Of a stretch of 64,000 nt of DNA, positions 4,531 to 59,828 are shown in pieces. The notes under the pieces are model-generated. The model was not told where the DNA came from, did no database searches, and was given only the letters and a program-made list of their open reading frames with translations. Made by a program: the position numbers and the translations under genes. Positions within the stretch are counted from its first letter, which is position 1, and each line of letters starts with the position of its first letter. The DNA comes from Gemmatimonadaceae bacterium (GTDB lineage Bacteria; Gemmatimonadota; Gemmatimonadetes; Gemmatimonadales; Gemmatimonadaceae), in NCBI GenBank assembly GCA_036003045.1, contig DASYSS010000052.1, positions 62,001 to 126,000 on the forward strand, given 5' to 3'.

Positions 4531-5206
4531 ACGGCGTCACCGTTCCCGCTGCCGGATCGAACCTGTGCCGCCACACGCACGCGGTGTCGTTCGCCAGTAG
4601 ATGAATAGAGATCGACGGCTCGGCTGACGTCGTGCGTACGTAGTGGATGTCGTCCAACGGTGGAATGAGCGGGTAGAACTCGCCGGGACTCAGCGTTTGC
4701 TCCTTGGCGACCTCGAGCCGCGCACGCTTTTCGTCGCGGCCGTCGTCGAGACGGCGGTAGACGGTCTCGTGCTGCTCACCCCTGTAGATGCCGACGAGTC
4801 CCCACGCGAGGTGGTCGTGCACCGGGGTGGCCGCGCCCGCCGGAACGACGAGCGCGAATAGACAGAGCGAGCCGTCCTCGGCGCGGTAGAGCGCATATTG
4901 GCCGATGCCGTCGCCCATTCGGCTCGCGGTGTCCGCTCGCGTGTACTCGTCCGGCAGCCAACCGTCGGTCGACAGCAATTTTCCGAATGCCGGCTTGAGC
5001 CGCTCGATGCGTTCGGCGACGTCGTCGACAGTCGAACGCCGCTGAACCTCCTCGACCAATCCGCGAACCGCCGGAGCATCCACGAGAAATCCGAATCTGT
5101 CGTGATCGTGCCAGTGGTCTTGATTGCACACGGTAGAGCCTCGCTCGAGATGCGCCGCCTCCGACCGGGGCTGTGGATCGGGGGAACGCCGCATGAATGC
5201 GTCCAT
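4478..5206 (-). CDS. Cysteine-dioxygenase-like cupin
   Basis: About 242 residues from the ATG at 5206. The cupin metal site is visible as PVHDHLAWGLVGIYRGEQHE (HxH plus downstream Glu/His) and a later SISIHLLANDT histidine. This matches predicted metal-dependent cupins related to cysteine dioxygenase and 3-mercaptopropionate dioxygenase, which oxidise thiols with Fe(II) and O2. The N-terminal helical part (LVEEVQRRSTVDDVAERIE) is also as in that family. The frame is open further upstream to 5359 without coding character, so the internal ATG is preferred. Substrate is unknown. The convergent MmcQ gene overlaps its 3' end. Confidence 0.75.
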   Translation of the reverse strand: MDAFMRRSPDPQPRSEAAHLERGSTVCNQDHWHDHDRFGFLVDAPAVRGLVEEVQRRSTVDDVAERIERLKPAFGKLLSTDGWLPDEYTRADTASRMGDGIGQYALYRAEDGSLCLFALVVPAGAATPVHDHLAWGLVGIYRGEQHETVYRRLDDGRDEKRARLEVAKEQTLSPGEFYPLIPPLDDIHYVRTTSAEPSISIHLLANDTACVWRHRFDPAAGTVTPFRSGYANAPCAEETADP

Positions 5207-8646: not shown

Positions 8647-9861
8647 ATGACAGCCGTTCCGTTCACGATCGACGTTCCTCAAGCGGTTCTCGACGATCTG
8701 CAACGCCGCCTTCAGGCGACCCGGTGGATCGACGACCTCAACGATCCCGGCTGGAGCCACGGGCTCAGCATTCCGTACATGCGCGAGCTCGTCGCTTACT
8801 GGCACAGCGCCTTCGACTGGCGAGCGCAAGAGGACTCGCTGAATGGTTTCCCGAACTTCCGTACCGACGTGAAGGGCGGGCAGATCATTCATTTCATTCA
8901 CGAACAGGGAAAAGGGCCCGATCCGCTGCCGATCATTCTCACGCACGGATTTCCCGATTCGGTGCTCCGGTTCGCCAAGCTCATTCCGATGCTGGCCGAC
9001 CCCGCCGCGTACGGCGGCGATCCCGCCGACGCGTTTCACGTCGTCGCGCCGAGCCTCCCAGGATACGGATTCTCCGACAAGCCGCATGACGGCACATCGC
9101 TATTTCAAGTCGGCGACATGTGGCACGACCTCATGACGCGCGTGCTCGGCTACGACCACTACGTCGCCCACGGCGGCGATTGGGGAAGCACGATCACCGA
9201 TTTTCTCGCGCGCGATCACAGCGACGCGGTGTTGGCGATTCACCTCACCGACGTTCCGTTCTATCACGCCCTCGCCGGGGCGCCCACTGATCCGAGTCGC
9301 GCCGAGCGGGACTATCTCGACTTCGTCGCGAAGTTTCAGCCGAGCCAAGGAGCGTACGCGTTCGTTCAGGGCGCGCAGCCCCAGGTCGTGGCGACGGGCC
9401 TGAACGACTCGCCGGCCGGACTGGCCGCGTGGATCGTCGAGAAGTTTCGTCGTTGGAGCGACTGCGACGGCGACGTCGAACGCGCGTTCACCAAGGACGA
9501 ACTGCTCGCCAACGTCATGCTGTACTGGGTCACGCAGACGATCAACTCGTCGTTCCTTCCGTACTACGATGTGACTCAAGCCGGAGCGATGACCTGGCTA
9601 CGCCAGAAGTTGAATGAATGGAAGGGCTCGGACGAAGTGCCGGCGGCGTTCGCGATGTTCCCGAAAGATCTTTCCAGCCCGCCGCGCGAATGGGCGGCAC
9701 GGTTCTACAACGTTCAGCGTTGGACACCGATGCCGCACGGCGGCCATTTCGCGGCGCTCGAGGAGCCGGACCTCCTCGCAAACGACCTCCGCACCTTCTT
9801 TCGGCCATTTCGCGGCATGATGGCCGCGATGCGAAGCGAATTGTTCAAGAGCGGAGACTGA
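8647..9861 (+). CDS. Epoxide hydrolase (microsomal type, alpha/beta fold)
   Basis: 404 residues. The N-terminal EHN lid domain (VPQAVLDDLQRRLQATRW, WRAQEDSLNGFPNF) is followed by the hydrolase core with LTHGFPDS (oxyanion loop), nucleophile Asp178 in AHGGDWGS, and the catalytic His in MPHGGHFAALEEP. This architecture opens epoxides to diols through a covalent ester with the Asp. There is no signal peptide, so it is probably cytoplasmic. ATG 8647 was chosen because it immediately precedes conserved sequence; an in-frame start at 8581 would add 22 unlikely residues. Confidence 0.9.
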   Translation: MTAVPFTIDVPQAVLDDLQRRLQATRWIDDLNDPGWSHGLSIPYMRELVAYWHSAFDWRAQEDSLNGFPNFRTDVKGGQIIHFIHEQGKGPDPLPIILTHGFPDSVLRFAKLIPMLADPAAYGGDPADAFHVVAPSLPGYGFSDKPHDGTSLFQVGDMWHDLMTRVLGYDHYVAHGGDWGSTITDFLARDHSDAVLAIHLTDVPFYHALAGAPTDPSRAERDYLDFVAKFQPSQGAYAFVQGAQPQVVATGLNDSPAGLAAWIVEKFRRWSDCDGDVERAFTKDELLANVMLYWVTQTINSSFLPYYDVTQAGAMTWLRQKLNEWKGSDEVPAAFAMFPKDLSSPPREWAARFYNVQRWTPMPHGGHFAALEEPDLLANDLRTFFRPFRGMMAAMRSELFKSGD

Positions 9862-9875
9862 CGCTCTCGGGTTAC

Positions 9876-9985
9876 CGGGAAACCGGGTACCGGGATACCG
9901 GAACGGCGAGACCAGGTGAACCGATGATGAGGCTCCGTCGTGTCACGCACTCCCGGTATCCCGGTGCCCGGCTCCCGGTTTCCCG
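9876..9985. repeat. Imperfect inverted repeat of CCGGGATACC-type units
   Basis: The left arm (9876-9901) is built of CCGGGAAACC, CCGGGTACC and CCGGGATACCGG. The right arm (9952-9984) is its reverse complement with one extra short unit. About 50 bases separate them, so the transcript could form a long hairpin between the epoxide hydrolase and RDD genes. The outer flank of the left arm is shared with the repeat after the DinB gene. Confidence 0.7.
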
Positions 9986-10017
9986 CTAGTCGTTAACAAC
10001 GATTTGTATCTTGCAGC

Positions 10018-10859: not shown

Positions 10860-13564
10860 CCGCGTCGCGCTGGTATCGCTACCTGCGCTTCTGGCGCCGC
10901 GACGTCCGCGCGGACATCGACGACGAGCTGCACTTCCACTTCGAAGCGCGCATCGAGGAGCTGACCTCGAGCGGGATGTCGCCCCGCGAGGCGCGTGCGC
11001 GGGCGATCGCCGAATTCGGCGACGTCGACGAAGTGCGCCGTGGGTTGCGCGAGATCGACGATCGCCTCGCTCGCCGCCGCGACCGGCTCGAGTGGTTCGA
11101 CGCGCTGCGACAGGACGTCGTCTACTCGCTTCGATCGCTGCGTCGCGCCCCCGCGGTGTCGCTCACGATCATCGTGACGCTTGCACTCGGACTCGGCGTG
11201 AACGCGGCGATGTTCTCGTTGCTCGACGCGATCTTCGTGCGGCCGCCGGCGGGAGTGGTGAGGCCGGCGGAAATACGCCGGCTCTGGAGCGAGCGGCGAT
11301 TCTCGAGCGGCAGACAGTTTTGGTCCGGATTCGACTACGCGTCCTACGACGCGATGCTGGCCTCACTCGGCGACAAGGCTGATCTCTTCTCGTACACGCC
11401 TCCGTGGCCAATCTCGATGGGCATCGGCGAGGATCCGCCGAAGGCGGAGGTGAGCAGCGCGAACGCCAACTACTTCCGCGTGCTCGGCATTCGGCCGGCG
11501 ATGGGACGCTTCTACACCGCCGAGGAAGATCGCGTCGATGCACCGGCCGCGGTCGTGGTGGTGAGCGATGCATTCTGGCGCCGGCGGTTGGACGCGGATC
11601 CCAAGGTCGTTGGACGATCGATCGAATTGCTCGAAGACCGATATGGCAAGCCTCTACTTCGGCCCTACACGATCATCGGAGTTACGCCACCACGATTTAC
11701 CGGCATCGATCTGGATGCCGCGGAAGTTTGGCGACCGATCGGTTCCGGTCTCCCGCAGGGAAAGGCGCCATGGTACCGCAGTCCGTTCGTAAACGGCTTT
11801 CAAGTCGTGATGCGTATGTCGCCGGACGCGCGCGAAGGTGAGCTTGCTCAACGGGCGACAAACCGGCTGCGCGCAGGGGACGTCGGCTATAGAAAAGACT
11901 CGACTACGGTGGCGGTCTTCGGCGCGATCGTCGCGGCGCGTGGGCCCGGAAAGCTCGATAGCAGCGTACAAGTCGCGACGCGGCTCGGTGGCGTCGCGAT
12001 CATCGTGCTGATCGTGGCGTGCGCGAACATCGTGAACCTGCTTCTCGCGCGGGCCGTGCGTCGCCGCCGAGAGATCGCAATCCGGCTCACGCTCGGCGTG
12101 TCGCGATCGCGGCTCGTGAGGCTGCTTGTCACTGAGAGCATCCTGTTGGCACTCGCCGCGGCGGCCGCCGCGGCGATCGCCGCGCTCTGGGGCGGAACAC
12201 TTCTTCGTCACCTGCTGACTCCCGAGATTCATTGGGCCGATTCGCCGTTGAACCCGCGCGTGCTGACATTCGCTGGTCTCGCGGCAATCACGTCAGGATT
12301 CATCGCCGGCCTCGTGCCCGCGCTGCAAACGCTCTCGCCGGATTTGACGAATGCCCTCAAGGCGGGAGCGCGCGAAGGGACGTCGCGCCCGTCGCGACTT
12401 CGGTCGTCGCTCATCGTGGTGCAGGCAGCGCTGTCCGTTGTGCTCGTCGTCGGCGCGGCGCTTTTCGTAAGAAGCCTGTCGAACGTCGAATCCTTCGACA
12501 TCGGCTATACCGTGAATCGTCTCGCCTTCGTTCGGCTCGCCAACGCCGCTCTCGACAGCACGGCGAAACGAGTGCAGTCCGATCGTTTGCTGGCGATGCG
12601 GGAGCGCTTCGAGAGAATTCCCGGCGTCGAACGAGTCGCCTACACGTCGAGTCGGCCGATCTACGCCATCCAGTTCATGGACTACGCGCCCGACGCCGAT
12701 ACACTCGCGCACAAGAAACCGCCCGGGATCTACACGGCCGTCTCCGCTGGATTCTTCGCCGCGACTGGGACGCGGTTGCTCCGCGGCCACGACTTTTCGC
12801 CGTCGCCCGGGCCGAGTGATCCCTACGGTGTGGTCGTGAATCAGGCCATGGCCGAGGCGCTCTGGCCGCACGAGGATCCCATCGGCCGGTGCATCCGCTT
12901 CGAGAAATCGCCGGTGTGCGCGACGGTGATCGGGGTCGCTCAGACGGCGATGCTCACGGAAGTCAGAGAGGATCCATCGCCGCACATGTACGTCCAATTG
13001 GACCACATGCCGTTCCGCGGCTGGGGCGTCGGCGACATCGTCCTGCGCGTCGATCCAAGCCGCACGACCGCCGTGCTCAACGAAATGCGGTCGATGCTGC
13101 GCAACGAATTTCCAAACGTCTACTCGCGCTCGACGACGATGGCCGCGTCGATGGAACCCGAGTATCGCCCGTGGCGACTCGGCGCGACGCTGTTCACGCT
13201 GTTCGGATTGCTCGCCCTCGTCGTCGCGGGGGTTGGTGTGTACAGCAGCGTGTCGTACGGCGTGAGCCAACGCACGCACGAGTTCGGCGTGCGCGCGGCG
13301 CTGGGCGCGACGACGAGCAACGTGCTGTCTCAGGTGCTCGGCGAAGGCCTTCGCACGGTCGCAATCGGCGTCGCCGTCGGTGTCGCGCTCGCGCTCGCCG
13401 CGGGTCGATTGGTCGCGTCGCTCCTCTACGGCGTCAAGGCAAACGATCCCGGCGCGATGACGATCGCCGCGATCGCCCTGCTTTCAATCGCCGCGGTCGC
13501 GTCGCTCGTTCCCGCATGGCGCGCCGCCAAGGCCGATCCGGTCGAAGCCTTGCGCGCCGAGTAG
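10856..13564 (+). CDS. ADOP-type ABC transporter permease (MacB/FtsX-like)
   Basis: 902 residues. A soluble prefix domain (DDELHFHFEARIEELTSSGM, EARARAIAEFGDVDEVRRGL) precedes the first membrane helix near residue 100. Two MacB-core/FtsX units follow; the first ends with LLARAVRRRREIAIRLTLGV and the second with YGVSQRTHEFGVRAALGA. The end (VPAWRAAKADPVEALRAE) is canonical. It has no ATPase domain, as is usual for these duplicated orphan permeases. The likely role is mechanotransmission or export with an ATPase encoded elsewhere; substrate unknown. It overlaps padR by four bases. Confidence 0.9.
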   Translation: MTASRWYRYLRFWRRDVRADIDDELHFHFEARIEELTSSGMSPREARARAIAEFGDVDEVRRGLREIDDRLARRRDRLEWFDALRQDVVYSLRSLRRAPAVSLTIIVTLALGLGVNAAMFSLLDAIFVRPPAGVVRPAEIRRLWSERRFSSGRQFWSGFDYASYDAMLASLGDKADLFSYTPPWPISMGIGEDPPKAEVSSANANYFRVLGIRPAMGRFYTAEEDRVDAPAAVVVVSDAFWRRRLDADPKVVGRSIELLEDRYGKPLLRPYTIIGVTPPRFTGIDLDAAEVWRPIGSGLPQGKAPWYRSPFVNGFQVVMRMSPDAREGELAQRATNRLRAGDVGYRKDSTTVAVFGAIVAARGPGKLDSSVQVATRLGGVAIIVLIVACANIVNLLLARAVRRRREIAIRLTLGVSRSRLVRLLVTESILLALAAAAAAAIAALWGGTLLRHLLTPEIHWADSPLNPRVLTFAGLAAITSGFIAGLVPALQTLSPDLTNALKAGAREGTSRPSRLRSSLIVVQAALSVVLVVGAALFVRSLSNVESFDIGYTVNRLAFVRLANAALDSTAKRVQSDRLLAMRERFERIPGVERVAYTSSRPIYAIQFMDYAPDADTLAHKKPPGIYTAVSAGFFAATGTRLLRGHDFSPSPGPSDPYGVVVNQAMAEALWPHEDPIGRCIRFEKSPVCATVIGVAQTAMLTEVREDPSPHMYVQLDHMPFRGWGVGDIVLRVDPSRTTAVLNEMRSMLRNEFPNVYSRSTTMAASMEPEYRPWRLGATLFTLFGLLALVVAGVGVYSSVSYGVSQRTHEFGVRAALGATTSNVLSQVLGEGLRTVAIGVAVGVALALAAGRLVASLLYGVKANDPGAMTIAAIALLSIAAVASLVPAWRAAKADPVEALRAE

Positions 13565-30969: not shown

Positions 30970-32286
30970 ATGCGCGCCCGATTTCCATTGCTTGGCGCTA
31001 TTTGCGCGACCGTTGGCATCGCGGGCCTCGTCGGCGCCCAAGCGCCGCGCGACTCGAACATGGCGCGCGCCCTGCGCGTTCTTCGTGCCTCACCCGTCAT
31101 GGACGGGCACAACGATTTGCCATGGCGCATTCGCGAAGACTCGCTCCATCCGATGGACGTCGAGGCGTACGATCTGCGCAAGCGGACTCCGGGCATGACC
31201 GATCTCGCGCGACTCTCCGCGGGGCACGTCGGCGCGCAATTCTGGTCGATCTACACGCCCGGAGAGCCCACGGACCCGGCGTACAAATCGAAGGGAGCGG
31301 TGGCGAGCAAGCCCGGCTACGCCCGCGTACAGCTCGAGCAGTTCGACATCGCGAAGCGGGTCATCGCGAAGTATCCGGAGCTCGCGTGGACGCCGAGCGC
31401 CGCGCAGGCGAAGACAGCGATGGCCAAGGGAAAGATCGCGTCGCTCCTCGGCCTCGAGGGCGGCCACGCGATCGAGAATTCGCTCCCGGTGCTCCGCCAA
31501 TACTATGAAATGGGCGCGCGCTACATGACGCTCACGCACAACGTCACCCTCGACTGGGCCGACGCCGCGCTCGACAGCGCGAAACACCACGGGCTCACTC
31601 CCTTTGGGCGCGAAGTGGTCCGCGAGATGAACCGACTCGGCATGCTCGTGGATCTGTCCCACGTGTCGCCGGGCACGATGAGCGCGGCGCTCGACGTGAC
31701 GCAAGCGCCGGTGATCTTCTCGCATTCGGGCGCTCGCGCGCTCGTCGACCACCGGCGCAACGTTCCCGACTCGATTCTCGCGCGCGTGCCGAAGAACGGC
31801 GGGGTCGTGATGGTGCCGTTCGTGACGTCGTTCGTGTCGGCCGCGGTCCTCGCCGATGACAATGCGCTCGAGGCGGAGACCGCCGCCGCGACGAAGCGTC
31901 ATCCTCACGACAGCGTCGCGGTGAAAAAGGACGTCGACGCGTGGCGCGCGGCTCACGTTCGCCCCACGGCGACCATCACCGACGTCGCGAACACCATCGA
32001 CCACGTTCGCCAAATCGCCGGGGTCGATCACGTCGGGATCGGCAGCGACCTGGACGGCATCACCGAGACCGTCGTCGGCCTCGAGGACGTCTCCAAATTC
32101 CCCGCGCTATTCGCCGAACTGGCCCGTCGCGGTTGGACCGACGCGGACCTGGCGAAACTGTCCAACGGAAACGTCCTCCGCGTGCTTGCCGAGGCGGAAC
32201 GCGTATCGGCGAAGCTCCGCGCGACGACGAAGCCGTCGGAGGCGACGATCGAGGTTCTGGATCGGGCGACGAAGGCAGTGCCTTAG
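30970..32286 (+). CDS. Exported membrane dipeptidase (M19 family)
   Basis: 438 residues with a signal peptide ending near GLVGAQ. Zinc ligands of the renal-dipeptidase family are visible: His-x-Asp in VMDGHNDLPW, the bridging Glu in LLGLEGGHAIEN, His in VDLSHVSPGTM, His in VIFSHSGARAL and Asp in GIGSDLDGI. These enzymes split dipeptides, often with D-amino acids or dehydro-peptides. The length is normal. It probably works in the periplasm with the other peptidases encoded here. The stop is followed at once by a six-unit tandem repeat. Confidence 0.92.
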   Translation: MRARFPLLGAICATVGIAGLVGAQAPRDSNMARALRVLRASPVMDGHNDLPWRIREDSLHPMDVEAYDLRKRTPGMTDLARLSAGHVGAQFWSIYTPGEPTDPAYKSKGAVASKPGYARVQLEQFDIAKRVIAKYPELAWTPSAAQAKTAMAKGKIASLLGLEGGHAIENSLPVLRQYYEMGARYMTLTHNVTLDWADAALDSAKHHGLTPFGREVVREMNRLGMLVDLSHVSPGTMSAALDVTQAPVIFSHSGARALVDHRRNVPDSILARVPKNGGVVMVPFVTSFVSAAVLADDNALEAETAAATKRHPHDSVAVKKDVDAWRAAHVRPTATITDVANTIDHVRQIAGVDHVGIGSDLDGITETVVGLEDVSKFPALFAELARRGWTDADLAKLSNGNVLRVLAEAERVSAKLRATTKPSEATIEVLDRATKAVP

Positions 32287-32292
32287 ACGGCG

Positions 32293-32346
32293 GACGGGTG
32301 GACGGGTGGACGGGTGGACGGGTGGACGGGTGGACGGGTGGACCGG
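32293..32346. repeat. Tandem repeat, six copies of GACGGGTG
   Basis: Six perfect eight-base units run from 32293 to 32340, followed by GACCGG. The array starts seven bases after the dipeptidase stop codon and precedes the gene starting at 32421. It is the most regular member of the GGTGGACC/GGTGGACG family. Perfect copies suggest recent slippage, so copy number probably varies between strains. Confidence 0.9.
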
Positions 32347-32420
32347 AACTGCCTGCCTGGACAGATTTGTATGCATTGCGCACGTTATCCCGACCACTCT
32401 CTTCCGCAATCGGAGAATCC

Positions 32421-55931: not shown

Positions 55932-58598
55932 TCAGTCAGCGCGCAACGCGACGAGCGGATCGCTTCGCGACGCGCGAAGCGCCGGTACGAAGCACGACGC
56001 CACGGCGACCGCGGCGAGCAACGCCGACAGCGTGACGAACACGACCGGATCCGTCGGGCTGACGTCGTAGAGCAGCGACGCCATCCACCGCGTCGCGACG
56101 AGGGCGCCGATCACGCCGATGCCGATTCCCGCGGCAGCGACGATCGCGCCTTCGCGCAGCACGAGCCGCACGAGCGCGCGAGGTTCCGCGCCGACGGCGA
56201 GGCGGACTCCGAACTCGCGCCGGCGATTCGCCACCGAGAGCGACATCACGCCGTAGATCCCGACGGCGGCCAGCAGCACGGCCACCGCCGCGAAGGCGGC
56301 GAGCAGGATCTCGGTCAACCGCTTCGTCGCCAACGAATCCCCGACGACGGATCCCAGGGTCCGAACGCCGTCGAGCGGAATCGCCGAGTCGAGTCTCGAG
56401 ATCGTCGACCGCACTGAGCGAACGGCGCCGGCGCCGTCCATGTCGGCGCGGATCGCCAACGAGACCCGCTGGGAGCCGCTCTGCGCGAGGCTCACGTATA
56501 GATGCGGCGCCGGCAGCCGCGTCGCGTCGCCGTCGTGGATCGCGCCGACGACGCCGACGATCGTGAGCCACGTCGTGTCGCCGGTCGTGCGAATGCGTTT
56601 TCCGAGCGCGTCGGGTCCCTTCCAGTATCGTTTGGCGATCGATTCGTCGATCAACGCGATCGGAACGCTCGTCGTGTCGTCGCTGGCCGACACGTCGCGC
56701 CCGAACAGGAGCGGAATGCCCATCGTCGCGAAGTAACCCGGGCTCACGCCGATCTGATACGTCTGGCCTTCTGCGCCGGACGATGGCGCCGGGCGGTCGC
56801 CGACCAAAAAACCGTCGTAGTTCGACTCGCCCTCGAACGGCAAGCCCCAGGCGAGCGCCGCCGAGCGCACGCCTGGCACCGCGCGAACCTGCTCGAGGAT
56901 CGTCGCGAAGAACGGATTCGCCGTCGACGCGCTGTTGTACTTGGATGGAAGTGGAAGCGCGATCGACGTGATACCCTCCGGGCGAAAGCCGAGGTTGACC
57001 GCGGTGAGGCGCTGGAAGCTCTCGAGCATGAGTCCCGCGGCGATCAACAGAATCACCGACAGCGCGAGCTGCGCGACGACGAGTCCGCTGTTCAGCCGGC
57101 GCACCGAGCGCTGGGCGGTCTCGCGCATCGTGAGCTCCCCCGTGGTCCGGGCGCGAACGCTTTGCAGGGCGGGCAGGAGGCCAAAGAGAACGCCGCTCAG
57201 CACGGAGATCGCGAGCGTCACCGCCAACACGCGGCCGTCGACATGGACTTCGTGCAAGCGGGGGAGCGCGACGAGCCGAGAGTTGGTGAAGACTCGCACC
57301 GCTGCGAACGCCATGGCGACGCCGGCCGCGGCGCCCAGCAGCGCCAGCGCGACGCTCTCGGTGAGCAGTTGGCGAATCACGCGGCTGCCGGTCGCGCCCA
57401 GCGCGGCGCGAAGTCCAATCTCACGCTGGCGAATCGCGGCGCGGCTCGACAGCAATGTCGCGACGTTGGCGATCGCGATCAACAGGATGAGTCCAACGGC
57501 GGCGAGCAGCACGATGAGAGGTCGGGCAGTCCGTTTCGTCATCGCTTCCTGAAGCGGCCCGACGATCGTCGCCATGTGCGTGCGCGCCGGATCGACCGAC
57601 TTGCTACGGGCCACGTTGGGCCCGCGGCGCGCCCAATCCCACATGATCGCCGTCGTCTGCCGGCGCGCGTGCTCGACCGAGACTCCCGGTTTCAGTCGAG
57701 CGATACCGACGTTCGTGAATCCGAATTGCCGCGACGGATCGAGACCCATCGGCAGCCAGACTTGGGTCCCGGCGGTCGGGAACGCGAATCCCGAAGGCAT
57801 CACACCGATGACGCGGATCGGGCTTCCGTCAAGATCGATCGTCGAGCCGATCGCATCGATTCGCCCGGCGAATCGCGAACGCCAGAACGCGTCGCTGAGA
57901 ATGGCGACGCTATTGTTTCCCTTCGTGTCTTCGTCGCGAGTAAAGGGCCGACCGCGCGCAGGGTCGACGCCGAGCACGTGAAAGAAGTCGGCGGTCACCA
58001 ACGCCGCGTCGACTCGTTCCGCGCGGCCGCCGGCGGCGAGCGTCATCCCGTTCGTTCGATATCCCGCGAACGACTCGAAATCGGTCGCGCCGTCGCGGTA
58101 CAGCGCGATATTCGCCTGCGAGATGCCCCACGTGGCGAGCCCGATCTCCGGATACGATTGAATGAGCCGAACGATCCGATCGGCGTTGGGATAGGGCAGC
58201 GGCCGCAGGAGGATCTCGTCGACGAGGGTGAACATCGCCGTGGTCGCGCCGATGCCGAGGGCGAGCGTGAGCGTGGCGACGAGCGTGAACGCCGGCATGC
58301 GGCGGAGCGTGCGGAACGCGTACCGGAGGTCGGACCACACGGATTCGATCCATTCCATGACACGCACCTCTCGCGCATAGCGCTGGTCGATGGTGACGCA
58401 CTCGTCGCGTACTGGTCCCGGGTCGCCGAACCTCGCGCGCGCCTGGGCCTCGGCGTCGGTCGGCGACGCGCCCAAGCGGCGCAGCTTCTCCTCGCGCATA
58501 GCGAGATGAAACGCGATCTCGTCGTCGACGTCGCGACGCGCCGATTGGCCGTCGCGTGAGATTCGGAAGAACCGGCGCCAGCCCCGCCCGACGCTCAC
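55932..58598 (-). CDS. ADOP-type ABC transporter permease (MacB/FtsX-like)
   Basis: 888 residues. GTG start at 58598 overlaps the padR stop (GTGA), and the prefix domain follows (DVDDEIAFHLAMREEKLRRL, EAQARARFGDPGPVRDEC). First helix LVATLTLALGIGATTAMFTL; the unit junctions are SSRAAIRQREIGLRAALGAT and LSVANRRREFGVRLAVGA; the end is VPALRASRSDPLVALRAD. Like the copy at 10856 it lacks an ATPase domain. It is convergent with the ACMSD-like gene, with 29 bases between stops. Confidence 0.9.
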   Translation of the reverse strand: MSVGRGWRRFFRISRDGQSARRDVDDEIAFHLAMREEKLRRLGASPTDAEAQARARFGDPGPVRDECVTIDQRYAREVRVMEWIESVWSDLRYAFRTLRRMPAFTLVATLTLALGIGATTAMFTLVDEILLRPLPYPNADRIVRLIQSYPEIGLATWGISQANIALYRDGATDFESFAGYRTNGMTLAAGGRAERVDAALVTADFFHVLGVDPARGRPFTRDEDTKGNNSVAILSDAFWRSRFAGRIDAIGSTIDLDGSPIRVIGVMPSGFAFPTAGTQVWLPMGLDPSRQFGFTNVGIARLKPGVSVEHARRQTTAIMWDWARRGPNVARSKSVDPARTHMATIVGPLQEAMTKRTARPLIVLLAAVGLILLIAIANVATLLSSRAAIRQREIGLRAALGATGSRVIRQLLTESVALALLGAAAGVAMAFAAVRVFTNSRLVALPRLHEVHVDGRVLAVTLAISVLSGVLFGLLPALQSVRARTTGELTMRETAQRSVRRLNSGLVVAQLALSVILLIAAGLMLESFQRLTAVNLGFRPEGITSIALPLPSKYNSASTANPFFATILEQVRAVPGVRSAALAWGLPFEGESNYDGFLVGDRPAPSSGAEGQTYQIGVSPGYFATMGIPLLFGRDVSASDDTTSVPIALIDESIAKRYWKGPDALGKRIRTTGDTTWLTIVGVVGAIHDGDATRLPAPHLYVSLAQSGSQRVSLAIRADMDGAGAVRSVRSTISRLDSAIPLDGVRTLGSVVGDSLATKRLTEILLAAFAAVAVLLAAVGIYGVMSLSVANRRREFGVRLAVGAEPRALVRLVLREGAIVAAAGIGIGVIGALVATRWMASLLYDVSPTDPVVFVTLSALLAAVAVASCFVPALRASRSDPLVALRAD

Positions 58599-58942
58599 GA
58601 TGGCTCCGGTGATTTGCGCGCGAGCGCCGCGACGATCGCGTTCGCGTGCCGATGCCAGATCGGCGACTCGGCGCGAAAGCGCGACCGTCCGGCGCTCGTG
58701 AGCTTGTAGAACTTCGCGCGGCGATTGTTGTCGGACACGCCCCATTCCGCCGCGATCCACCCTCGCCGCTCGAGGCGGTGCAGGGCGGGGTAGAGCGTGC
58801 CCTCCTCGAGGAGGAGGACGGATTCGCTGGCGCCCTCGATCCATTCACTGATCCCGTAGCCGTGGAGCGGACCCCACGAGAGGGCTTTCAGGATGAGGAG
58901 ATCGAGGCTACTGCGGAGAAGGTCGGATTGGGCGTCGGCCAT
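58595..58942 (-). CDS. PadR family transcriptional regulator
   Basis: 115 residues: LLRSSLDLLILKALSWGPLHGYGISEWI, wing EGTLYPALHRLERRGWIAAEWG and NNRRAKFYKLTSAGRSRF. ATG 58942 gives the normal PadR length; the frame is open to 59200 only through the repeat array. Coupled to the ADOP gene by a four-base overlap, exactly as in the module at 10.5 kb. Its promoter must sit beside or within the repeat array upstream. Confidence 0.9.
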   Translation of the reverse strand: MADAQSDLLRSSLDLLILKALSWGPLHGYGISEWIEGASESVLLLEEGTLYPALHRLERRGWIAAEWGVSDNNRRAKFYKLTSAGRSRFRAESPIWHRHANAIVAALARKSPEPS

Positions 58943-59008
58943 GGTCGCTCGGGAATCTTCCACCCTGTGTGACACAAGGGAAGAAGAAAAGGTTGGGCGA
59001 CTGAAAAG

Positions 59009-59312
59009 GCCAGACTCCGAAGCGGCCGAGCCCCGAGACGGCCGAACTCCGAAACGGCCAGACTCCGAGGGGGGCGAAACGGCCGAACTCCGAATAGGCC
59101 AAGCTCCGAAGGGTCGAACTCCGAGTACGCGCACCAGCGACGCGCCCCACCCTTCCGCTTCCGGACGTTTCGGTCTTCGGCCGTTTCGGTCTTCGGCCAT
59201 TTCGGCGTCTCGGCTTTCGGCAGTTTCGGCTTTCGGCAGCTTCGGCTTTCGGCAGTTTCGGCTCTCGGCGGTTCGGCTCTCGGCAGTTCGGCTCTCGGCA
59301 GTTTCGGGGCCG
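59009..59312. repeat. Inverted array of 16-base CCGAAAC/GTTTCGG units
   Basis: The left half (59009-59126) holds seven degenerate 16-base units of type GGCCGAACTCCGAAAC. The right half (59169-59312) holds about nine units of type TTTCGGCTTTCGGCAG, which is the same motif inverted. A 42-base unique spacer separates the halves, so single-stranded DNA or RNA could fold into one very long hairpin. The array fills most of the 451-base gap between padR (leftward) and the RidA gene (rightward). It has no coding character. Confidence 0.85.
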
Positions 59313-59393
59313 GTCGTTTTAGAGTTCGGCAGTCTCGGGCTACCGCCCTGGACCTCCCCCCGCCATCATGGTCGCAACTCTTTCCCCGCCCCC

Positions 59394-59828
59394 ATGCTCC
59401 GGACTCTGCGTCTCGTCGCTCTGGCCTCGCTCGCTGCCGCGTGCGCCCGCCCGAACGCGCTCGAGGTCGAATGGATTCCTTCTCCTCGACCCGCCGCTCC
59501 CTTTTCCGAGTTGGTTCGTGTCGGCGACGTGCTCTATCTCGCGGGTCAAATCGGTACCGACTCGACCGGTCGCCTCGTACCCGGCGGTCTCCAGACCGAG
59601 GCTCGGCAGGCGCTCAACAACATCAAGGCGACGCTCGAGCGGCACGGCTCCGGGCTCGACCGTGTCGTGAAGTGCACCGTGTTCCTCGCCGACATTCGCG
59701 ACTACAATGATTTCAACGAGATCTACCTCACGTATTTCCGCGCGCGCAAACCGGCGCGGAGCGCGATGGCGGCGTCGGGGCTGGCGCTGAACGCGCGCGT
59801 CGAGATCGAGTGCATGGCGGTGACGTAA
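59394..59828 (+). CDS. RidA-family lipoprotein
   Basis: 144 residues. A lipobox (LASLAAACARP, Cys17) precedes a full RidA/YjgF domain: PSPRPAAPFSELVRVGDVLY, LAGQIGTDSTGRLVPGGLQT, EARQALNNIKATLERHGSGL, KCTVFLADIRDYNDFNEIYL and RSAMAASGLALNARVEIECM. The Arg of PARSA and the terminal Glu of EIECMA, which bind and hydrolyse imine intermediates in RidA, are present. RidA is normally cytoplasmic; an exported, lipid-anchored form is unusual. The next gene starts 18 bases on. Confidence 0.88.
   Translation: MLRTLRLVALASLAAACARPNALEVEWIPSPRPAAPFSELVRVGDVLYLAGQIGTDSTGRLVPGGLQTEARQALNNIKATLERHGSGLDRVVKCTVFLADIRDYNDFNEIYLTYFRARKPARSAMAASGLALNARVEIECMAVT

Follow-up and report, generated by a model that had tools for sequence, protein, structure and literature searches.

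A dispersed, genome-specific inverted octamer array in a Gemmatimonadaceae bacterium as a putative two-way transcription barrier

Introduction

What does a long inverted array of short degenerate units do between two divergent genes? Such an array lies between a padR-like gene and a ridA gene of a Gemmatimonadaceae bacterium, in the window (the whole 64,000-nucleotide stretch of DNA that was analysed). Intergenic 7-bp tandem repeats at many sites, with no common function among the adjoining genes, are familiar from the STRR heptamers of cyanobacteria. In Xanthomonas and Nostoc, GGGAATC and GGGGA(C/T)T units form numerous tandem arrays between genes, and the function of these arrays is left open in the part of the report drawn on here (PMC4692102). 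According to the same part, each Xanthomonas genome has 70-75 inverted convergent pairs; the arrays adjoin ordinary genes and are under-represented in divergent regions; a lineage carries one heptamer type, whose units form G-quadruplexes and whose arms contain 2 to 26 units; and most heptamer repeats sit between identical genes in two species with the unit unchanged (PMC4692102). Here we describe the array at the padR/ridA interval, the dispersed family to which it belongs, and the arrays of related genomes, and we weigh what such elements may do.

Results

Structure of the array at the padR/ridA interval

The array consists of two arms of opposite orientation. The left arm (59003-59125, + strand, 123 bp), delimited with a trained unit model, a 29-arm alignment, a repeat finder and TRF, is a head-to-tail run in which an 8-bp half unit separates the first four units from the last three; each unit is a degenerate 16-mer with the consensus TGCCGAACTCCGAAAC / GGCCGAACTCCGAAAC, built from two related octamers. 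The right arm (59153-59338, - strand, 186 bp; repeat finder and unit model) holds the units in inverted order and mainly of the GCCGAAAGCCGAAAC subtype. The 27 bp between both arms (59126-59152) would be the loop of a potential hairpin. The initial annotation had counted seven units on the left, which stands with the half unit added, and about nine on the right, which does not, as the right arm is longer and reaches 59338; the unit-free middle that it placed between the arms exists, but spans 27 bp by the trained unit model instead of 42.

To the left of the array lies the padR-like regulator gene (58595-58942, - strand; Pfam PF03551, E 5.8e-20), with about 60 bp between its start codon and the left arm, followed by a MacB/FtsX-like permease gene originally labelled ADOP (55932-58598, - strand; Pfam PF12704 and PF02687). 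To the right, about 55 bp separate the arm from the start codon of the RidA-family gene (59394-59828, + strand; Pfam PF01042, E 2.8e-34). The best-matching relatives of this RidA point, by their names, to a source within the Gemmatimonadaceae. A short palindrome, TGTGTGACACA, is located between the padR start codon and the left arm (58966-58976) and might be the operator of the padR-like regulator. Reading frames stay open across the array on both strands (58893-59828 on the + strand, 58595-59200 on the - strand), so automatic annotation may wrongly extend RidA or PadR.

The inverted array is real and beyond chance: allowing at most three mismatches, the unit 16-mer has 8 matches in the window, every one inside the array, against 1.44 expected, and none of 100 shuffles reached this number. 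The suggestion that the array could extrude a cruciform or form a long hairpin is backed by arm complementarity, with 68-nt inverted arms that are 75% complementary, and by folding of 58990-59350, which gives -179.1 kcal/mol for the + strand (z -4.0, 0/100 shuffles) and -166.3 kcal/mol for the - strand (z -2.9, 1/100 shuffles). It was rightly set apart from CRISPR, the units being head-to-tail without unique spacers, and from known RNAs, as Rfam 15 gave no match above the gathering score in the window. A search of 58850-59450 for a GC hairpin followed by a T run, the canonical intrinsic terminator, found none, and the window copy is without a U-tract; no canonical promoter was found near it. 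At some other loci of the family (L032, L042), a canonical terminator is visible by eye behind or between the arms.

Further arrays are present in the window. An inverted short-unit array of unrelated sequence occupies 9867-9990, with CCGGGTA/CCGGGAA octamers and a purine-rich left arm (TRF, inverted arms and purine fractions), and a single array of the genome's second octamer family, with 6.5 units of GGTGGACG, occupies 32283-32352 on the + strand.

A dispersed family of ordered arms

The window array is a single copy of an intergenic repeat that is dispersed over this genome and specific to it. Over all 106 contigs of the genome (5.37 Mb), the 16-base unit has 97 matches at up to two mismatches, whereas the reversed control has 4, which rules out a random frequency of the motif; a 22-base pattern at up to three mismatches has 156 matches and its control none. 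In 58 related genomes the 22-base pattern gives 15 matches in total, spread over 12 genomes, against 4 for the control. With the unit at up to two mismatches, 87 matches in this genome compare with 1 in 178 other Gemmatimonadaceae genomes, and the 16-base unit is thus essentially confined to this genome. Exact matches to the repeat in IMG/VR numbered zero, and spread by viruses was rejected on this ground; the exact pattern was likewise absent from a wider collection of genome contigs, which may omit this genome.

The trained unit model marked 59 stretches, of which those below 45 log-odds units were dropped and neighbours merged, giving 51 arms at 38 loci within 809 kb. These 809 kb, in which gene calls came from a home-made hexamer model, comprise 30 stretches holding unit matches, 10 background stretches and the window; they were picked to hold unit matches, and densities within them are therefore not genome averages. 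The unit recurs on numerous contigs next to ordinary genes, which makes an assembly artefact unlikely. Some arrays are nevertheless close to contig ends, no more than about 600 bp from the ends of contigs C10 and C23 and from the start of C53 of G000, and so probably break the assembly.

Within the family, the unit has a conserved core, CCGAA, with 8/16-bp periodicity, and its consensus is free of any run of three G; a lag scan of intergenic DNA of this genome is likewise dominated by period 8 and its multiples. We aligned the 29 of 51 arms that are 100-145 bp long, and these share one architecture of about 122 bp, which has a G-rich start and continues with four units, a half unit and three units. 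The half unit is at the identical place in 26 of the 29, and the choice of A or G after CCGA depends on the index of the unit (chi2 80.1, 13 d.f., p 1e-11), from which it follows that the arms descend from an ordered ancestor and not from free slippage at each site. Units are closer within an arm than between arms (2.36 versus 2.93 differences). We infer that the family spread within the genome by copying of whole arms, together with slippage by one octamer at a time. A further repeat in the genome, with the unit CGCTGACGTCCTTAGAG and period 17 (L036:8584-8839 and L036:12741-12854), forms a long inverted pair between convergent genes and is without purine polarity.

Fixed geometry beside ordinary genes

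Wherever two arms occur at one locus, they are arranged as '+-' (13/13), with '-+', '++' and '--' absent; these are 13 of the 38 loci, the remaining 25 having one arm only at the threshold used. Paired arms thus face each other, with their 5' ends toward the genes and their 3' ends toward the intergenic middle. Single arms show the same tendency: 18 have the 5' end closer to a gene and 3 the 3' end, and in one the distances are equal (p 0.0015). Arms often start 0-31 bp from a stop codon, and by manual count about 28 of the 51 start close behind the end of a gene on the same strand. Between co-oriented genes, the locus is nearer the stop codon of the upstream gene in 14 of 20 cases (Wilcoxon p 0.044), and single arms in such pairs run along the genes in 8 cases and against them in 5. 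Convergent pairs are not significantly enriched in this genome (8/32 versus 97/486, p 0.49). In the relative G002, arrays, mostly of TCATCC-type repeats, are between convergent genes in 6 of 9 cases (p 0.004 against all intervals).

The neighbours of the arms are ordinary chromosomal genes, among them those for peptide methionine sulfoxide reductase, SHMT, GMP synthase, ribosomal protein S20, phosphofructokinase and AcrB (48 of 66 listed flanking proteins were scanned, plus the permease of the window). A gene-cassette reading, with a hairpin behind each gene, was rejected, since flanking genes are ordinary and orientations mixed. Only 5 of 32 occupied intergenic regions separate divergent genes, and the window copy therefore belongs to a minority type. 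Its place between padR and ridA is as first described; a tie of the element to their promoters falls away, because the family to which the element belongs is dispersed beside ordinary genes. At L055:9998-10139, an arm ends 58 bp before the start of a second padR-like gene, the distance in the window being 60 bp.

Purine polarity and the behaviour of the stem

Outside the 16-base-unit family, the purine-rich arm precedes the other in 20 of 21 polar inverted pairs, from a set of 24 pairs (19 purine-first, 1 reverse, 4 neutral) to which the array at 9867-9990 of the window was added by hand. The sole exception is at L220:15929 of G020; counted by unit family, in our own grouping, the ratio is 11 to 1. 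As a control we took exact 10-bp inverted repeats away from arrays, which are purine-first in intergenic DNA (106:43, p 2.5e-7) and without bias within genes (179:198). The purine-rich strand also reads away from the nearest gene in arrays outside the family (28:8, p 0.0012), a count of 36 arrays in which both arms of a pair may figure, with 15 ambiguous and 2 gene-less arrays set aside. The 16-base-unit arms themselves are weakly purine-rich (0.55), being A-rich, with C above G and few T.

Partner arms have a similarity of 0.43, against 0.46 for random arms of other pairs (p(perm>=obs) 0.94), and are no more alike than random arms, so the stem shows no co-evolution and compensatory pairing of partner arms was rejected. 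Selection at the RNA level on one strand was also rejected, with the sense strand folding better than the antisense in only 7 of 16 cases.

Unrelated units on a shared plan in relatives

Nine related genomes, sampled at 18-223 kb each, carry arrays of unrelated 7-, 8-, 13- or 15-bp units, often as inverted pairs. Within 200 bp, 20 of the 45 arrays in this sample have a partner in inverted orientation and 5 one in direct orientation; for the other array families of our genome the figures are 7 and 1 of 28. The relative G014 has no array and G016 a single unpaired one, and the habit is therefore not universal in Gemmatimonadaceae. The units are specific to their genomes: triplets of TGGGCGTR number 102 in G004 and those of AGGGCAGG 350 in G020, with 0 in the other 58 genomes in both cases, and triplets of GGTGGACS number 233 in this genome and 2 in the other 58. 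The inverted AGGGCAGG arrays of G020 are presumably the short repeats of Gemmatirosa kalamazoonesis. Inverted repeats of TCATCCTGAGCGAAGCGAAGGATC type were seen in G002 (L109:4698-5044 and L109:9821-9991) and G004 (L197:9059-9160), some with tandem copies of one half.

We compared this genome with its relatives at adjacent gene pairs that are conserved. In 85 comparisons, 3 intervals hold arrays in both genomes, 4 in our genome only, 3 in the relative only and 75 in neither (Fisher p 0.006, or p 0.039 for intervals of at least 40 bp, from comparisons that are few and not independent). The three shared intervals are all in one 20-kb stretch, L059, two of them shared with G003 (4689-4964 and 12762-13085) and one with G004 (9695-9895). 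In G003, an inverted GGTGGAAC/GGATGAAC array lies downstream of SHMT; in G004, an inverted TGGGCGTR array adjoins an acyl-CoA dehydrogenase gene. A TCATCCTGAGCGAAGCGAAGGATC-type hairpin fills the SHMT interval in G004. Shared occupation could reflect intervals that are merely permissive.

Discussion

Our analysis places the array between padR and ridA in a dispersed family to which, among published cases, the Xanthomonas arrays of the GGGAATC heptamer, polarised and inverted, come closest. As in Xanthomonas and Nostoc, one short unit forms many intergenic arrays (38 loci and 51 arms here), and the portion of the earlier report considered here likewise describes inverted convergent pairs, corresponding to our 13/13 '+-' loci, and a repeat strand that reads away from the neighbouring gene, corresponding to our 18 versus 3 single arms (PMC4692102). 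The arrays differ in that the unit here is 8/16 bp without a three-G run, as opposed to a 7-bp G-quadruplex unit; in that many arms are one ordered element of about 122 bp, whereas 2-26 units are given in that portion (PMC4692102); and in that species of one genus have different units. The TAACTGA repeats of Beggiatoaceae are also intergenic 7-bp tandem repeats at many sites with no common gene function, but those described in the sections drawn on are short, nearly always in direct orientation and for the most part located immediately before start codons (PMC4679880). Gemmatirosa kalamazoonesis, of the same bacterial family, has 471 repeats, most of them in two classes of short length, 90 and 150 bp, for which the excerpt used here reports number and position, not unit structure, inversion or polarity (PMC11237797). 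REP/BIME and REPIN elements (PMC3116915, PMC2817692) are likewise dispersed intergenic inverted repeats, though REPs are 20-40-bp palindromes tied to a Y1 transposase, whereas the arms here are tandem arrays in a genome without one. Intrinsic terminators of the bidirectional type, as far as the source is used here, share a hairpin beside gene ends, unlike which our stem is many times longer and repeat-built, with no U-tract in the window copy (PMC8355165). No description of octamer arrays in Gemmatimonadota was found in the literature searched, in which subscription journals are thinly covered. New are the octamer-based, ordered, genome-specific arrays, the turnover of units at shared intervals, and a polarity rule across unit families.

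Bidirectional intrinsic terminators have a purine-rich 5' arm and a pyrimidine-rich 3' arm on both strands, and RNA-DNA hybrids with pyrimidine RNA are weaker. The explanation that we favour, tentatively and as somewhat short of probable, is that the dispersed long-hairpin repeat is a putative two-way transcription barrier whose sequence is free to turn over. RNA polymerase leaving a gene would meet the purine-rich arm first, and its transcript would fold back into a long, imperfect hairpin at the time when the enzyme is on the pyrimidine-rich arm; the weak RNA-DNA hybrid there may slow or end transcription. As an inverted pair looks identical from either side, the barrier would work in both directions, and as it would depend on polarity and pairing, not on sequence, units could turn over while the site stays occupied. 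The window copy would then separate the divergent padR and ridA units. We count in favour of such a barrier the ordered element, the fixed '+-' geometry, the single arms with the 5' end toward a gene, the loci closer to the stop codon between co-oriented genes, the purine-first polarity, the purine-rich strand that reads away from genes, the control in which intergenic and not genic repeats share the polarity, the turnover at conserved sites, and the inverted partners of arrays in relatives. Counted against it are the lack of co-evolution of partner arms and of a sense-strand folding bias, the convergent pairs that are not enriched, the 25 of 38 loci with a single arm, the weak purine excess of the 16-base-unit arms, the conservation of sites in three intervals of one stretch, and the window copy itself, which is without a U-tract and separates divergent genes, an arrangement that needs no terminator.

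That partner arms do not co-evolve makes a near-neutral repeat a serious rival, and one that we consider quite possible. Slippage would expand the units, recombination or template switching would copy the arms, and the hairpin would have no role, with arms persisting wherever neither gene nor promoter is broken; this would agree with folding that has no strand preference, flanking genes that share no common function, a unit sequence limited to one genome and units more alike inside arms than between them. It accounts less readily for an inverted polarity fixed in 13/13 pairs, for purine-first arms in unrelated unit families as in ordinary intergenic but not genic hairpins, and for unrelated units in identical intervals. 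An ordered element of about 122 bp at about forty places, with arms in inverted pairs, also brings to mind a non-autonomous mobile element of fold-back or REP-like type with its transposase in trans. This is unlikely, since PF01797 (Y1, RAYT type) has no match in the whole genome, with a control positive in 5 of 14 known genomes, target duplication is not apparent by eye in the flanks, and the unrelated units of relatives keep the geometry; RAYT-type mobility in particular was rejected, there being no Y1 transposase in the genome.

The periodic CCGAA core and the strand symmetry of the inverted geometry would also suit a DNA-level role in which transcription is irrelevant, either as a multimeric binding array for a nucleoid or looping protein or as a cruciform. 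We regard this as decidedly unlikely, because unit sequences are wholly different between members of one genus and a new protein specificity would therefore be needed each time. Rho could instead load at single arms that are C-rich and U-poor and follow stop codons, in keeping with the frequent starts behind same-strand gene ends and with the excess of C over G and scarcity of T. Against this, single arms in co-oriented pairs run both along and against genes, paired arms would hide the loading site, and the arms of relatives are G-rich, so that Rho loading appears very improbable.

Returning to the two-way barrier, unrelated arrays built on one plan, sometimes between identical genes, suggest that such barriers may be disposable. 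A broader proposition, which we regard as doubtful, would make inverted short-unit arrays a sequence-independent class of bidirectional transcription barriers, including the heptamer arrays of Xanthomonas and Nostoc, in which geometry and purine-first polarity are selected at given intervals and units of 7, 8, 13 or 15 bp are rewritten between species by a unit-copying process. For genome analysis, a caution is that arrays of this kind can interrupt assemblies and give rise to spurious reading frames. Intergenic heptamer arrays have been known in few bacteria, with no function assigned, and their geometry now recurs with unrelated units in one bacterial family, which shifts the question from what the sequence does to what the geometry does.
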